64,000 nt of DNA from positions 2,604,001 through 2,668,000 of the forward strand of contig NZ_CP051774.1 in NCBI RefSeq assembly GCF_012913485.1. The letters are read 5' to 3'. Within the stretch, counting starts at the first letter, position 1. Every line of letters begins with the position of its first letter. A model generated the notes under the pieces. The model was not told the DNA's origin and searched no databases. It saw only the letters and a list, made by a program, of their open reading frames with translations. A program made the translations under genes and the position numbers. Of the stretch, positions 167-12,542 are shown piece by piece. Source of the stretch: Luteolibacter luteus. Lineage in GTDB: Bacteria; Verrucomicrobiota; Verrucomicrobiia; Verrucomicrobiales; Akkermansiaceae.

Positions 167-1042
167 TCAGAGATTCAGGCGGCCCAAGCGAGGGGCGGAG
201 TGGCCGGAGGCGCGATAAAGGATCTGCCGCAAATCCACGAGCAGGGAACGGGCGGCGAGGCTATCGGCGCAGAGGGCACGGACCATGAATGCCCCTGCCA
301 AAAGCGGTCCGTGGCCGAGGTAAATTTTTTCACCGGAAAGGGCATCCAGTTCCTCCGCAGGCCAAGCGGAGGCCGTGATACCGGCGACGTGAACAGTCAC
401 GTAGTGAGCGGCGGGAAATTTCTCCCGCATTGCGGTGAGGCTATGGTCGGAAGGATTGAGATTGTAGCGTTCCCGGGCGATCAGTTTTCCACCCACTTCC
501 AAGTCCAACTCCCAGCGGAGGCTTTCGTAGTCAAAGATCTCACCCCGGGCGACTCGGCCGGGGGCGATCCACTCGAAGAAAAAGAGCCCGGCGTCTTCGG
601 CCAATTCGATCTTGGTCTGTTGATGATAGCGGGCGCCGGCCTGCGGGATGAAAGGCTCCGGGATCCACTCCATGAAGGCTCCGGACTCAACCGTCAGGTG
701 CTGGGAGCAGATCGCGGGAGTTTCACCACGGGCGCGGTGGACGCGTGAAGCTCCCGGAGAACTGAGCACCACCCGGCTCCCCTGCCCTGCGTCGACACGG
801 ACATCCAGGCGATCGCCATCGAAGAAGCCCGCGGTCGGGTTCACGAGATGGACGACCAGCGCGCCCGATTCCACGTGAGGCTTGCTCAGATGGATGGGCG
901 CGCGGAAGGACTGGCGGGACAAATAGGTGACCCCGTCCGGCCTGAGGTCGCAGCGGAGATCGAGATGACCGCGGATCGTCCGGCCCGTGATTCCTTGGAT
1001 CTGTGAGATCGGTTCCACGGGCCGTGACGGAAGCGGGTTCAA
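167..1042 (-). CDS. ureD: Urease accessory protein UreD (UreH)
   Basis: UreD is the scaffold on which UreF, UreG and UreE deliver nickel to apo-urease in the cytoplasm. The 291-residue protein has the usual length and family signatures: an N-terminal NPTAGFFDGDRL segment (the family's NP-x-GG-x-x-x-GD stretch), SSPGASRVHRA, and MEWIPEPFIPQAGARY followed by an acidic FFFEWIAPGR-RGE block. The start is a TTG at 1040-1042 whose first base directly follows the TGA of dapL (TGATTG), so translation is probably coupled to dapL. No urease structural or other accessory gene lies in this window. They would have to follow to the left of base 1 or be elsewhere. Family assignment is firm; the TTG start is inferred from position. 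Confidence 0.88.
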   Translation of the reverse strand: MNPLPSRPVEPISQIQGITGRTIRGHLDLRCDLRPDGVTYLSRQSFRAPIHLSKPHVESGALVVHLVNPTAGFFDGDRLDVRVDAGQGSRVVLSSPGASRVHRARGETPAICSQHLTVESGAFMEWIPEPFIPQAGARYHQQTKIELAEDAGLFFFEWIAPGRVARGEIFDYESLRWELDLEVGGKLIARERYNLNPSDHSLTAMREKFPAAHYVTVHVAGITASAWPAEELDALSGEKIYLGHGPLLAGAFMVRALCADSLAARSLLVDLRQILYRASGHSAPRLGRLNL

Positions 1043-7571: not shown

Positions 7572-7862
7572 ATGTCCGGTCCGGAATCCCTAGAGCAGAT
7601 CTTGGAAGATGCGCGGCGCGAGCGCCCGGCGGCGCTGCCCCGCGGATTCTCGGCGGAAGTGATGGAACGCATCTCCCGGCAAGCCGCGGAGAGGCCGCGG
7701 CCTTCGCCCGGCGCGCTCGACTATGCGGTGATCGGGATGGCAGCAGTGATTGTCGCGGGACTCGTCAGCCTGCTGGTGGTCCCGTCGAACGACTCGTCCG
7801 GGCCGCCGCGGCTCGCGGTCTTTGGCACCGAGGGAAACAGCTCGCCCTTCGCGACGCCATGA
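7572..7862 (+). CDS. CnrY-like transmembrane anti-sigma factor
   Basis: A 96-residue protein with a cytoplasmic N-terminal ~48 residues (SLEQILEDARRERPAALPRG, predicted helical), one membrane helix at about 51-70 (AVIGMAAVIVAGLVSLLVV) and a short external tail. Cupriavidus CnrY has the same layout and nearly the same length (95 residues): its cytoplasmic helix binds the sigma factor CnrH and its external part contacts CnrX. Sequence similarity alone is weak. The call rests on topology, size and gene order (Y-X-H), with the next gene strongly CnrX-like. The stop codon overlaps the next start (ATGA). Confidence 0.65.
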   Translation: MSGPESLEQILEDARRERPAALPRGFSAEVMERISRQAAERPRPSPGALDYAVIGMAAVIVAGLVSLLVVPSNDSSGPPRLAVFGTEGNSSPFATP

Positions 7863-8308
7863 ATCCTTGGACGGCCCGGCTTCTATGGGCACTCGCCACG
7901 GTGACCTTGGCGGCAACGACGGCGGTCTTCGTGTCCCACTCGATGCAGGGCAAGCGCGCTCCCGCAGCGGGTACATCGGAGGATGACTTCCACCGCTGGA
8001 TGCACGAACAACTGCAGATCACGCCGGCACAGCATGAGGCCCTGGCATCCGCGGAAGAGGCCTATGAAAAAGAACGCGAGCAGCTGCGCGGCGAGCTCAC
8101 CGAAGCTGGCAAGCAACTGGCGGACGCGGTGCGACAAGGAAAAGCGGGATCGCCGGAAATCGAGGCGGCGCTCCAGCGACTGAATGCCGCCCAAGCCAAG
8201 CTACAGCGGGCGACGCTCACCCATTTCTTCGCGATGAAGGATCACCTCGATCCGGGGCAGGCCGAAAAGCTCCTGCAGTGGACCCATGACAGCATTCTCC
8301 CCAAGTAG
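7859..8308 (+). CDS. CnrX-like periplasmic nickel/cobalt sensor
   Basis: A 149-residue protein with an N-terminal membrane anchor (about 8-26) and an all-helical periplasmic domain. Compared with remembered Cupriavidus metallidurans CnrX (148 residues), the five ligands of its Ni/Co site, H42, H46, E63, H119 and M123, align with H45, H49 (in FHRWMH), E66, H122 and M126 (in THFFAM), all at a constant offset of three. The LADAVRQ and SPEIEAA segments also match. In CnrX, metal binding relieves CnrY and frees CnrH. The gene overlaps the CnrY-like gene by 4 bases and the sigma gene by 23 bases, so the three are translationally linked. Confidence 0.85.
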   Translation: MNPWTARLLWALATVTLAATTAVFVSHSMQGKRAPAAGTSEDDFHRWMHEQLQITPAQHEALASAEEAYEKEREQLRGELTEAGKQLADAVRQGKAGSPEIEAALQRLNAAQAKLQRATLTHFFAMKDHLDPGQAEKLLQWTHDSILPK

Positions 8309-8906
8309 CTTCGAGGGGATTCCCCGCGGGGCTTCCCTGCCCCCGGGAGTGACCGCAGACGAGGTGGCGGAGATCGCGATGATCGCGTCCGCGCAAAATG
8401 GATGCCCCGATTCCTTCCGGCAGCTGGTGGAGCGGTACCAGCAGAGGATCTACCATTTCTGCTTTCACTACCTGCGCGATGCCGGGGATGCGCGGGAGGC
8501 ATGTCAGGACGCCTTCATTCGCGCTCATCGGGCACTGCCGAAGTATCGGCCGAAGGCCCGCTTCAGCACTTGGCTGTTCCAGATCGCACTGAATCTGTGC
8601 CGCGACCGTGTGCGGGCATCATCCCCGGGTCGTGCGACCGAGGCGCTGGGCGAGCATGCACTGGAATTCCCCTGCCCTGCCGCGACTCCGGATGAGGCGG
8701 CGATGCGGGATACGGATCTGGCGAAGCTGGATCGCGGGCTGGCGGCCCTAGCGGAAGAGCATCGGAGCGTGCTGGTCCTTTCTTGTCTGGAGGGCCTGAG
8801 CCACAGCGAGTGCGCTGAGATTCTCAAGTGCTCCGAGCGTGCGGTGGAAGGGCGGCTCTACCGAGCGCGGCAACGGCTCGCGGAATGGTGGGAGCGGGAA
8901 GAATGA
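8286..8906 (+). CDS. ECF sigma factor (CnrH-like)
   Basis: A two-domain ECF sigma-70 factor. Region 2 runs from about 43 to 105 (DSFRQLVERYQQRIY, AREACQDAFIRAHRAL, STWLFQIALNLCRD) and region 4 from about 145 to 200 (LVLSCLEGLSHSECAEIL followed by SERAVEGRLYRARQRL). The ATG at 8286 lies inside the CnrX-like gene; a GTG at 8349 would remove a poorly conserved 21-residue leader. By analogy with CnrH it should be held by the CnrY-like protein and released when the CnrX-like sensor binds metal. The TonB receptor 131 bases downstream is the obvious candidate target. Confidence 0.88.
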   Translation: MTAFSPSSFEGIPRGASLPPGVTADEVAEIAMIASAQNGCPDSFRQLVERYQQRIYHFCFHYLRDAGDAREACQDAFIRAHRALPKYRPKARFSTWLFQIALNLCRDRVRASSPGRATEALGEHALEFPCPAATPDEAAMRDTDLAKLDRGLAALAEEHRSVLVLSCLEGLSHSECAEILKCSERAVEGRLYRARQRLAEWWEREE

Positions 8907-9016
8907 AAGGGTGATTCGGTTAGGCTGGAATCGGAGGGAGCCTCCAGAACCCCTTCGGGTTTTCAGAGAGATCTTCGCGAGCGAGGAAGGACCAATAGGG
9001 GCGATCGCGAAGCGTC

Positions 9017-9028
9017 GGTGACGTCACC
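9017..9028. promoter_or_regulatory. Palindrome upstream of the TonB receptor
   Basis: GGTGACGTCACC is a perfect 12-bp palindrome 9 bases before the first possible start (GTG 9038) and 42 bases before the alternative GTG 9071 of the TonB-dependent receptor. Position and symmetry suit an operator or a leader-RNA element. No matching palindrome occurs before the CnrY-like gene. Confidence 0.35.
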
Positions 9029-9037
9029 ATTTTCCGC

Positions 9038-11131
9038 GTGGGATCTTTCCGAGGGTCTCGTTTCACAGGCGTGACCACTTTTTCCACCCCGCCTGCGCAC
9101 TCCCGCCGTGCCGTGATCGCCATGGCGATGATGCCCTTCGCCCTTCACGCCCAAGAAATGCTCGAACCGATCGTGGTGACGGGCAAAGCCGAAAACCTGA
9201 TCGGAGAAGCCGACGCCGCCTCCAAGGGCCAATCCGATCGCGAGGAATTGCTCGAACGCCCCTACCTGCGCCGCGGGGAACTGTTAGAAGTGGTGCCCGG
9301 CATGGTGGTGACGCAGCACGCGGGCGGCGGAAAGGCGAACCAGTACTTCGTCCGCGGGTACAACCTGGATCACGGCACCGACTTCGGGATCTTCGTCGAT
9401 GGCATGCCGGCGAACTACCGGGCGCATGGCCATGGCCAAGGATATGCGGACATGAATTTCCTGATCCCGGAGTTCGTGGAACGTCTGGACTACCAGAAGG
9501 GGCCCTACGATGCCCGAATGGGTGATCTGACGACGGCAGGCTCCGCGGAGTTCTCGCTGGTGAATTCCCTGGAGCGCGGCTTCGCGGGCATCACAATCGG
9601 GGAAGATGACTATTACCGCGGCGTCTTCGGCGATTCGGTGCAGGCGGGATCCGGCACGCTCACCTTCGGTGGTGAGGCGACCTATTACAATGGCCCTTGG
9701 GTGCTCGAAGAAGACGCGCACCGTTTCAACGGGTTGATCCGCTGGCATACCGGTGACGAGGACAACTTCTTCAACATCATGCTGCTCGGCTACCAAGCGG
9801 AGTGGACATCCAGCGACCAAATCCCGGAACGAGCAATCTACTCCGGCGAGATCGACCGCTACGGCTATCTGGACCCGACGAATGGAGGCCAGTCACAGCG
9901 CTATTCGCTTTCCATGAACTGGGGGCGGCTCTGTGACGACGTGATGTGGAAGGGGAACGGCTACGTAGGCTACTACGATCTCGATCTGTATTCGAACTTC
10001 ACCTACTTCCTCGATGACCCGGTGAATGGCGACCAGTTCCGCCAATCCGACCAGCGCATCTTCTTCGGAGGCGACGTGTCCGCGACGCTTCAGGGACGCA
10101 GCATTTTCGGAGCGCCGACCGACTACATCATCGGCTTCCAGACGAGGAACGACGCGATCTGGGATCTCGAATTGGCCCGCACCCGCGCCCGCGCCGACGT
10201 GAACAAGATCCGCGAGGATGATGTCTTCACGGGCAACTACTCGGTTTATGCGGCCGCAGAAACGAAGTGGAACGAGTGGTTCCGCACCCAAGCCGGCGTG
10301 CGGGCAGATCTCTTCTACTTCGATGTGGAGAGCGACAATCCGGCAAACAGCGGAGATGAGTTCGATGGCATCGCGGTGCCGAAGCTGAATCTGATCTTCG
10401 GGCCATGGGCGGATACCGAGTACTACCTCAACCTGGGCGGCGGTTTCCATTCGAACGACGCGCGTGGCATCTTCACGCGCATCGATCCCAATGACGGCGT
10501 CACACCGGTGCTACCGGTGGATCCTCTGGTGCGCACCTGGGGCAGTGAAATCGGCGTGCGCCACCAGTGGGGTGCGAACCTGACGACCACGGCGGCGCTC
10601 TGGTACATCTATAGCGAGTCCGAGCTGCTCTACGTAGGGGATGCGGGAAATGTGGAAGCGGGGCCTTCGACGGACCGCTACGGGGTGGAATTCGCGGCGT
10701 ACTGGAGGCCAAACGAGTGGTTCAGCTTTGACAGCGAGATCGCCCTCTCCGAGGGACGTTACACCGATACTTCGGGGGGTGCCTTTGTGGAGAATCAAGT
10801 GCCTTTCATCATTTCCAGCGGGCTCACGCTGGGCGGGAAGACGGGACTCTACGGGACGCTACGTGCCCGCTATTTCTCGGAGCGCCCGCTTACTGCGGAC
10901 AAGAGAGTCGAATCCGAGGATTCGCTGCAGTTCAACGCGCGGGTGGGATACCGCTTGGAGAACTGGGACTTCGCGGTGGATGTGCTGAACCTCTTCGATC
11001 GCGAGGACAACGACATCGAATACTACTATACTTCCCGTATGCCCGGAGAACCTGCTGCAGGAATCGATGACGTGCACCTGCATCCTGCCGAGCCGCGGAC
11101 GATCCGGGCGTCAGTGACGTATTACTGGTGA
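9038..11131 (+). CDS. TonB-dependent outer-membrane receptor
   Basis: A 697-residue outer-membrane transporter. The signal peptide ends at about ...MMPFALHAQ, followed by the TonB-box-like EPIVVTG. The plug domain has the characteristic order RRGELLEVVPGMVVTQHAGG, NQYFVRGYNLDHGTDFGIFVDG and KGPYDARMGDLTTAGS. A 22-strand-type barrel rich in aromatic ends fills the rest, closing with VTYYW. The GTG at 9038 is the longest start; GTG 9071 gives a more compact signal peptide and is also plausible. It follows the CnrYXH-like module on the same strand and is likely regulated by it. The substrate is not known from sequence; Ni or Co, free or chelated, is an inference from context only. Confidence 0.9.
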   Translation: MGSFRGSRFTGVTTFSTPPAHSRRAVIAMAMMPFALHAQEMLEPIVVTGKAENLIGEADAASKGQSDREELLERPYLRRGELLEVVPGMVVTQHAGGGKANQYFVRGYNLDHGTDFGIFVDGMPANYRAHGHGQGYADMNFLIPEFVERLDYQKGPYDARMGDLTTAGSAEFSLVNSLERGFAGITIGEDDYYRGVFGDSVQAGSGTLTFGGEATYYNGPWVLEEDAHRFNGLIRWHTGDEDNFFNIMLLGYQAEWTSSDQIPERAIYSGEIDRYGYLDPTNGGQSQRYSLSMNWGRLCDDVMWKGNGYVGYYDLDLYSNFTYFLDDPVNGDQFRQSDQRIFFGGDVSATLQGRSIFGAPTDYIIGFQTRNDAIWDLELARTRARADVNKIREDDVFTGNYSVYAAAETKWNEWFRTQAGVRADLFYFDVESDNPANSGDEFDGIAVPKLNLIFGPWADTEYYLNLGGGFHSNDARGIFTRIDPNDGVTPVLPVDPLVRTWGSEIGVRHQWGANLTTTAALWYIYSESELLYVGDAGNVEAGPSTDRYGVEFAAYWRPNEWFSFDSEIALSEGRYTDTSGGAFVENQVPFIISSGLTLGGKTGLYGTLRARYFSERPLTADKRVESEDSLQFNARVGYRLENWDFAVDVLNLFDREDNDIEYYYTSRMPGEPAAGIDDVHLHPAEPRTIRASVTYYW

Positions 11132-11156: not shown

Positions 11157-11747
11157 TTACGGCTTCTCCGACTCCTGCTGCTGCTTCGGCGGAAGCGCGA
11201 GTTCGGAGAGGCCCATCAGGAAGCCATCGGCGGGATCGGCCTTGCCGCGGACAGGCGAGGCACCGGTCTTATTGCCAGCCAAGCTGGAGAAAGGCGGGGC
11301 GATGCCATCGCGGCGCATCTTGCGAAGCGTGACTTCCACGACCTGCGCCAAGGTATAGCGATCCAGAATGCCAGCGATGGCATTCCGGACATCGATCATG
11401 AGCATGCGCAGGCCGCAGTGATCTTCATCCGGGCAGGTGCAGCGTTGGTAGGCGAACTCGCTGGCGCAGGCGATGGGGGCCAGACGGCCGTCCATCAGGC
11501 GAACGAGATCACCGATGCGGATTTTCTCCGGAGGCGTGGCCAAGGCGTATCCGCCCAATTTCCCGCGCTTGGTTTCCACGATCCCGGCCTCCCGCAATTC
11601 CTGGAGGATGCGCTCGATGAATTTCAGGGGCAGACGGTTCGCATCCGCGAGTTCCACACCGGAAACCACGGGGAGGCCCATTTCCGCGGCGATCCCGAGG
11701 TGGATGGTGGCACGGAGGGCGTACTCGGCTTTCTTGGAAAGGTGCAT
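11157..11747 (-). CDS. Rrf2/IscR-family transcriptional regulator
   Basis: An Rrf2 protein with the family start MHLSKKAEYALRA, a winged helix (residues 1-70, GKLGGYAL in the wing) and an iron-sulfur-type cysteine cluster C94, C103, C105 and C111 (CASEFAYQRCTCPDEDHC). This suggests an Fe-S or redox sensor as in IscR, NsrR or RsrR. A ~60-residue C-terminal extension rich in P, K and Q is longer than usual. It is convergent with the TonB receptor (25 bases between stops). The short palindrome at 11756-11766 just upstream may be its own operator. Confidence 0.88.
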   Translation of the reverse strand: MHLSKKAEYALRATIHLGIAAEMGLPVVSGVELADANRLPLKFIERILQELREAGIVETKRGKLGGYALATPPEKIRIGDLVRLMDGRLAPIACASEFAYQRCTCPDEDHCGLRMLMIDVRNAIAGILDRYTLAQVVEVTLRKMRRDGIAPPFSSLAGNKTGASPVRGKADPADGFLMGLSELALPPKQQQESEKP

Positions 11748-11852: not shown

Positions 11853-12542
11853 TTACCCCTCGAAAGAGGAGGTCTCGGAGACGGACGAAGCACTGAAAAG
11901 CACGCTCTTCCGTGAGGCAAAGCGCCGGCGCCATTCGCTCGGGCTCATGCCGGTGGCTGCCACGAAGCAGCGGTTGAATTGGGACAAGGAGAGGCCGCCC
12001 ATGGTCGATGCGATCTCGGAAACGCGACGGCTGGTGGTTTCAAGGACATGGCAGGCGTGCTGCATCCGCTCATCCCTGAGGACACGCTTGAAGCTGGAGC
12101 CGGTGATCTTCTCGAATTGCTCGCCGAGATATCCGGCGGAGAGATCCACACAGCTGGCCACCTCTGCGAGGCTCATGGCACGGGTGGGATGGGTGATGAC
12201 GAGGGACCACGCGGTTTTCACGGCCTGAGGCCACTCGCGGAGCGGACGACCACCTGCGAGATTACCCTTCATGGCATCAAGCATGCGAGTAAGGACAGGC
12301 TCGCGCCACGCGGGTTTTCCCACTCCCTGCGGCCGCTCGACATGGACCAGCCATGTTTCGCCGTCGTGTGGCAAAGAAACCTGCCAAGCTGCGGCGGCAT
12401 GGGCGTCATCAGGAGCCGCATCTCCGCGGTAACAAGTCACCGAGCCGCTCGTGGTGAGCCGCGATAGGGCGGCGACATACGAGGCAAGCGAGGGCCAAGC
12501 CTGGATCTCTTCTTCGGACAGGGGGTGTTGGACAGGGGACAT
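11853..12542 (-). CDS. AraC-family transcriptional regulator
   Basis: A 229-residue protein whose C-terminal half is a double helix-turn-helix of AraC type: MSLAEVASCVDLSAGYLGEQF (first HTH, about 122-143) and RRVSEIASTMGGLSLSQFNRCFVAATGMSPSEWRRR (second HTH plus the conserved GMSPSEWRRR end). The N-terminal ~100 residues are a small sensor domain I cannot assign. It is divergent from the winged-helix gene at 12675 across a 132-base AT-richer intergenic region. Confidence 0.88.
   Translation of the reverse strand: MSPVQHPLSEEEIQAWPSLASYVAALSRLTTSGSVTCYRGDAAPDDAHAAAAWQVSLPHDGETWLVHVERPQGVGKPAWREPVLTRMLDAMKGNLAGGRPLREWPQAVKTAWSLVITHPTRAMSLAEVASCVDLSAGYLGEQFEKITGSSFKRVLRDERMQHACHVLETTSRRVSEIASTMGGLSLSQFNRCFVAATGMSPSEWRRRFASRKSVLFSASSVSETSSFEG

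Follow-up and report, generated by a model that had tools for sequence, protein, structure and literature searches.

The nickel sensor CnrX, which has been well characterized at the structural level, is known for calling up an efflux pump. What, then, would a complete switch of this type do when the gene that follows it encodes a TonB-dependent receptor? This question is raised by a stretch of 64,000 nucleotides from Luteolibacter luteus (Verrucomicrobiota; NCBI RefSeq assembly GCF_012913485.1, contig NZ_CP051774.1, positions 2,604,001-2,668,000 of a single-contig genome of 6.41 Mb; hereafter the window), in which genes for a putative CnrY-type anti-sigma factor, a CnrX-type periplasmic metal sensor and a CnrH-type extracytoplasmic function (ECF) sigma factor precede such a receptor. 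A previous annotation based on the letters of this DNA and their translations (the sequence-only reading) had claimed a complete CnrYXH-type switch apparently driving the receptor and not a pump. This claim is supported by promoter geometry, which was found at all 19 switch-linked loci and at 6 of 94 loci without the switch, and by two congeners in which receptor and switch have become separated. On the basis of sequence comparison, we consider it probable, with substantial room for doubt, that this is an envelope switch of the CnrYXH type that has come to control the import of nickel (or cobalt) across the outer membrane.

The three regulatory genes lie on the forward strand and overlap one another, and the claimed open reading frames (ORFs) of 96, 149 and 206 residues were all recovered: the anti-sigma factor at 7572..7862, the sensor at 7859..8308 and the sigma factor at 8286..8906, the first two sharing 4 bases and the last two 23 bases. 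The anti-sigma factor fits CnrY in its position upstream of the sensor and in its size, and a hydrophobic stretch is visible by eye at about residues 49-70. No family match above the curated cut-off was obtained for this gene. A profile of nine anti-sigma proteins matched a profile built from CnrY and four sphingomonad counterparts with an hhalign probability of 93%; the same nine-member profile against CnrY alone gave 0.2%, that is, no match. The sigma factor, whose gene lies downstream of the sensor gene and overlaps it, carries the Sigma70_r2 and r4_2 domains and matches CnrH (4cxf, 1.9e-16), which is not the top-scoring ECF structure, as eight other ECF sequences outscore it.

The sensor matches PF13801 (Metal_resist, 2.5e-14), being the only match to this family above the cut-off in the source genome, and aligns with the CnrX structures 4wwb and 2y39 over 93 residues with zero gaps (E of about 4e-14). 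In this alignment, H45, H49, E66, H122 and M126 fall on H42, H46, E63, H119 and M123 of CnrX, in the CnrX numbering given in the sequence-only reading. The claim of five ligands at the exact spacing of CnrX was thus borne out by a gap-free alignment. When 54 sensors were aligned (47 of 75 database matches, CnrX, the window sensor and five loci), exactly seven columns were invariant (H45, H49, E66, L115, Q116, H122 and M126), five of which are the ligands; relatives without the metal residues, which would have spoken against the sequence-only reading, do not occur in this alignment. Sensor relatives were detected in 24 of 288 sampled genomes of the phylum. Because the five-ligand set HHEHM is kept in only 16 of 27 phylum-wide sensor matches, the weak matches are not all of the CnrX type.

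The next gene indeed encodes a TonB-dependent receptor (9071..11131, forward strand, with a likely GTG start at 9071), as shown by a Plug domain (4.3e-13). No STN signalling domain was found on it at the Pfam threshold used, the Plug being alone above the cut-off, and a PDB sequence search returned no homologue of the receptor at E <= 0.01. Between the sigma factor gene and the receptor lies a putative CnrH-type promoter, TGGG-N16-CGT (9039..9061, forward strand), with a predicted +1 at 9071, which was recognized by locus comparison and by the geometry of the Cupriavidus promoters cnrYp and cnrCp. In the sequence of plasmid pMOL28, both of these read GGGG-N16-CGT, with the transcription start site (TSS) 12 bases past the C of CGT, and the element in the window is of the same type. 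The TSSs of cnrYp and cnrCp and their dependence on CnrH are given in a passage of PMC9045368, whereas a later table, in PMC11647585, classes the cnrY TSS as RpoD-type.

The element distinguishes receptor genes with the switch from those without it. The loose form [TG]GGG-N16-CGT was present upstream of the receptor at nine of nine switch-linked discovery loci, compared with 6 of 94 receptor genes lacking the switch. A spacer of 16 was the only one found in all nine discovery gaps, other spacers from 8 to 24 giving 0-5 of nine and 1-9 of 94; the five of nine seen with spacer 15 are explained by runs of G, which permit a one-base shift. The strict form RTGGGDT-N13-BCGTY occurred at 9/9 triad loci and 0/94 non-triad loci, and an unbiased gapped-word search recovered TGGG-N16-CGTT in seven of the nine discovery gaps, with a maximum of three in shuffled sequences. 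At loci outside the derivation set where the switch or its sigma factor gene is adjacent (L251, L252, L253, L255, L257, L258, L274, L281, L282 and L283), the element was found in 10 of 10. One of these, L252, matches in the loose form only; at L274 no more than a remnant of the receptor is left, and the receptor at L281 is a different one (about 25% identity).

The position of the element also bears on where the receptor begins. Since the TSS was taken 12 bases past CGT, the predicted +1 falls on GTG 9071, and since the other candidate, GTG 9038, falls within the promoter-like element, 9071 is the likelier start; the receptor probably starts there, and from this codon it opens with a plausible signal peptide (by eye). 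In 15 of 21 loci a GTG or ATG lies at most one base from the predicted +1, and in eight exactly on it, counts for which the reading frame was checked in part of the 21 loci only. This coincidence makes a leaderless message likely in many of these loci. The gap between the sigma factor gene and the receptor also contains an 8-base inverted repeat, CTTCGCGA (8973-8980) and TCGCGAAG (9005-9012), and, directly before the promoter element, a 12-base palindrome, GGTGACGTCACC (9017-9028), all noted by eye. Neither was seen in the congener gaps viewed by eye (L044 and L127). A NikR-like palindrome was not visible in the gap of the window, which was inspected by eye and not scanned.

The four-gene order on which the sequence-only reading was built recurs in other Verrucomicrobiota: it was identified in congeners (G178 and G274), at six named loci of other verrucomicrobial genomes (L127, L128, L129, L131, L132 and L140) and in two more genera of the family (G475 and G484). 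Strong relatives of the receptor occur in 25 of 276 sampled genomes of the phylum, and its best named relatives are from Luteolibacter and Haloferula. Among 18 genomes of the genus, 12 contain the receptor, 11 the sensor (all within the 12) and six neither (Fisher p 3.8e-4, uncorrected for kinship). It should be noted that two of the six genomes with neither gene are only 61% and 72% complete, and that in the twelfth receptor genome (G293) the contig is cut inside the sigma factor gene beside the receptor. When linkage to the switch is mapped onto a tree of 113 receptors, it requires three changes, compared with a mean of 8.7 for shuffled labels, and none of 500 shuffles was as low.

Receptor genes that are not linked to the switch provide further information. 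Two of three such genes in the genus carry the element, in its strict form: in G289 the receptor lies about 72 kb from the switch, and in G299 the two are on different contigs, with 1.1 kb before the receptor containing no sigma factor gene. Because the promoter was kept in both genomes after separation, the sigma factor probably serves such detached receptor genes in trans. In genome G288, one locus (L274, G288:C4:96000-110000, reverse strand) consists of a complete triad and the promoter element followed by a short receptor remnant only; elsewhere this genome contains two receptor copies, one linked to the switch and one not.

What the receptor transports is suggested by its relatives. The sequence-only reading had offered import, export-linked scavenging and outer-membrane remodelling; import fits best because, outside this phylum, members of the receptor family are linked to NikR and HoxN, and the other two fit less well. 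The window receptor shares 40-47% identity, over 87-98% of the query, with several members that adjoin NikR or HoxN, and H94, H112, H132 and H471 are present in all 113 aligned receptors. In ten plasmid neighbourhoods drawn from 51 plasmid records with a receptor homologue, NikR was found in five, HoxN in three and either in seven; a cobalamin cluster is nearby in one of the three regions with neither. Among 52 named non-verrucomicrobial receptor loci, 15 have NikR and one more has HoxN in the flanking DNA covered (16/52), and 12 of 39 loci with at least 3 kb on both sides have NikR or HoxN within 3 kb. Relatives of the window receptor in Bradyrhizobium, Afipia, Paraburkholderia and others adjoin NikR, HoxN or hydrogenase genes, which resembles the nickel TonB-dependent transporters predicted from NikR regulation and named in passages of PMC11247825 and PMC7142613 (for example, Bll6948 and Daro_3944), a likeness by family context. 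Unlike those receptors, whose neighbour is NikR, the receptor in the window has an ECF switch beside it.

The same family links bear on a different use of the receptor, in detoxification or envelope remodelling, where metal excess would swap outer-membrane proteins and the receptor would bind or clear the metal. CnrYXH switches are not known to have outputs other than protective ones, which would favour such a role. In addition, several TonB-type receptors were up at 10 mM nickel in Sphingobium ba1, where accumulation was suggested by the authors (a section of PMC5557971), although these are likened to the window receptor by receptor type. However, NikR, HoxN and hydrogenase genes are supply genes, and two TonB receptors of Cupriavidus metallidurans are, in a part of PMC11647585, among the genes most strongly down-regulated under metal stress. 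We therefore regard a protective role as very unlikely.

Several observations weigh against nickel import under this switch. NikR or HoxN was found beside none of the 51 verrucomicrobial receptor loci, so the nickel assignment is carried over from other phyla, and on the receptor tree the NikR label is patchy, with 16 changes against a shuffled mean of 18.5 and 28 of 500 shuffles as low. In G288, the promoter element is missing before the unlinked second copy of the receptor. Genome-wide, the strict element is about as frequent as its reversed control (13 vs 11 in the source genome, with further counts of 5 vs 5 and 9 vs 6), and a gapped-word search of nine regions upstream of anti-sigma genes remained at shuffle level. 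Sensors with HHEHM also adjoin copper genes in sphingomonad triads, and the triad of G447 precedes a different receptor and a ZnuA-type protein, of a family named for zinc. All 13 strict matches in the source genome lie in open frames, the one at the receptor being in an upstream extension of the receptor's frame; a larger sigma regulon is unsupported by 13 matches against 11 in the control, and further targets are possible. No [TG]GGG-N16-CGT was found in the nine regions upstream of anti-sigma genes, so that self-activation as in cnr is not evident.

Some of these points allow that the switch is correctly recognized and the metal is not, copper, zinc or cobalt being sensed and the receptor importing that metal or its complex. 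The identity of the metal does not follow from the ligands, because CnrX-type sensors with the same set adjoin copper genes, and naming it from HHEHM was rejected for this reason. The sphingomonad triads share the order of genes and the ligands with the window and sit upstream of copA/copB, their output being a multicopper oxidase and CopB and not a TonB receptor. In three of four sphingomonad/Caulobacter triads examined, the element is present near copA and upstream of the anti-sigma gene, which suggests that triads at copper genes follow the CnrH promoter geometry as well; on sphingomonad plasmids (L040, L041 and L043) GGG-N16-CGT stands before the anti-sigma gene and shortly upstream of copA. 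Of the six non-congener sensor loci from Verrucomicrobiota among those listed (8 of 26 loci), four have a CopA-like match, and a cobalamin cluster lies near the M. extorquens CM4 relative. On the other hand, NikR and HoxN adjoin relatives of the window receptor, and the CopA/CopB genes of Sphingobium ba1 are themselves up under nickel (a section of PMC5557971).

The cluster in G447 (L281, G447:C192:66000-81000) is informative for both views. The triad is followed there by another TonB receptor, a DUF4198 protein, an ATP-binding cassette (ABC) ATPase, a MacB-type permease and the ZnuA-type binding protein, possibly an entire operon for metal uptake controlled by a CnrH-type switch. The ZnuA-type protein speaks for zinc; however, among 147 loci, relatives of this protein and of the permease (42-43%) occur only in Methylomagnum, where a NikR-linked receptor of the window's family lies 0.8-2.9 kb away. 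Through these relatives, clusters of the G447 type and of the window type are tied to metal uptake. On balance, we consider a metal other than nickel unlikely.

If nickel (or cobalt) import is indeed the output, the following mechanism could be proposed. The inner-membrane anti-sigma factor would hold the ECF sigma factor; binding of nickel or cobalt by the periplasmic sensor via H45, H49, E66, H122 and M126 would make the anti-sigma factor let go; and the freed sigma factor would transcribe the receptor from TGGG-N16-CGT, with the predicted +1 coinciding with the start codon. The sensor would thereby report the arrival of substrate in the periplasm and raise the receptor, feed-forward import being the most economical model. 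The same wiring could operate with the opposite sign, the metal-free sensor freeing the sigma factor so that the receptor is made in metal starvation. Scarcity is the usual inducer of uptake genes (NikR, Zur and Fur being textbook cases), and the conservation of ligands shows metal dependence and says nothing of its sign. However, every ligand is kept, nothing seen hints at inversion, and in Cupriavidus it is nickel that frees CnrH from CnrYX and, via CnrH, activates cnr (a passage of PMC9045368), which makes the inverted sign, in our opinion, rather unlikely. Feed-forward import implies that a brake must exist. Candidates are the NikR gene and the NicO gene beside a resistance-nodulation-division (RND) pump, both elsewhere in the source genome, and other pumps, none of which showed a link to the locus.

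With respect to pumps, the sequence-only reading had stated that no RND efflux gene is present. This holds within the window; as a genome-wide statement it was rejected, since nine PF00873 matches lie outside the window, and RND genes as a linked output, as in cnr resistance, were not found, none of the nine being in the window. The RND gene nearest to CnrA by BLAST (28%), at L074 (own genome 2168000-2187000), is adjoined by HlyD-type and NicO-type genes and by no CnrX gene at that locus, which is possibly a nickel/cobalt efflux locus without a CnrX-type sensor. The nine RND loci contain three [TG]GGG-N16-CGT matches outside crudely called ORFs, none of them just upstream of an RND gene.

The locus shares with cnrYXH-cnrCBAT of C. 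metallidurans pMOL28 the order anti-sigma factor, sensor and sigma factor, the five ligands at the same spacing and the promoter geometry, and differs in having a TonB receptor in place of an RND pump as output and in that no such element was found before the anti-sigma gene. FecIRA-type systems likewise drive a TonB receptor by an ECF sigma factor and an envelope anti-sigma factor with feed-forward logic, whereas here the receptor has no STN domain at the Pfam threshold used and sensing falls to a separate periplasmic metal sensor. We are evenly divided over a broader scenario, in which a resistance-type periplasmic nickel sensor was rewired from export to feed-forward import in Luteolibacter/Haloferula and their relatives: the pump and self-activation would have been lost and, as far as seen, one receptor promoter kept, served in trans even when separated. 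A TonB receptor would then be coupled to an ECF sigma factor in a second way, a soluble metal sensor taking the place of the receptor's signalling domain.

At best, the novelty would be a CnrYXH-type switch with an uptake output, the switch type itself being already known; no paper on CnrX together with Verrucomicrobi- was found in the open-licence PMC literature, and print beyond PMC may differ. Four papers in that literature mention CnrX as well as a TonB-dependent receptor. If this switch does control uptake in Verrucomicrobiota, metal-excess sensing and metal supply would be interchangeable as outputs of a single module, and the means by which runaway import is prevented would become testable. 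In addition, the promoter element offers a route to more genes under CnrH-type sigma factors and, in a phylum that has received little study, an entry point to TonB receptors that handle non-iron metals.

Finally, the surroundings of the locus were examined. A urease accessory gene, ureD (167..1042, reverse strand; PF01774, 3e-42), lies outside the switch and is context only. The sequence-only reading took it as a sign that the cell may use nickel; the gene is present, but the pointer is weak, as is ureolysis as a reason for nickel use, because the only urease alpha match in the genome is at 3,406,855 (L249, own genome 3400500-3414500), about 0.8 Mb from ureD. Downstream of the receptor and convergent to it are genes for an Rrf2-type regulator (11157-11747) and an AraC-type regulator (11853-12542), both on the reverse strand.

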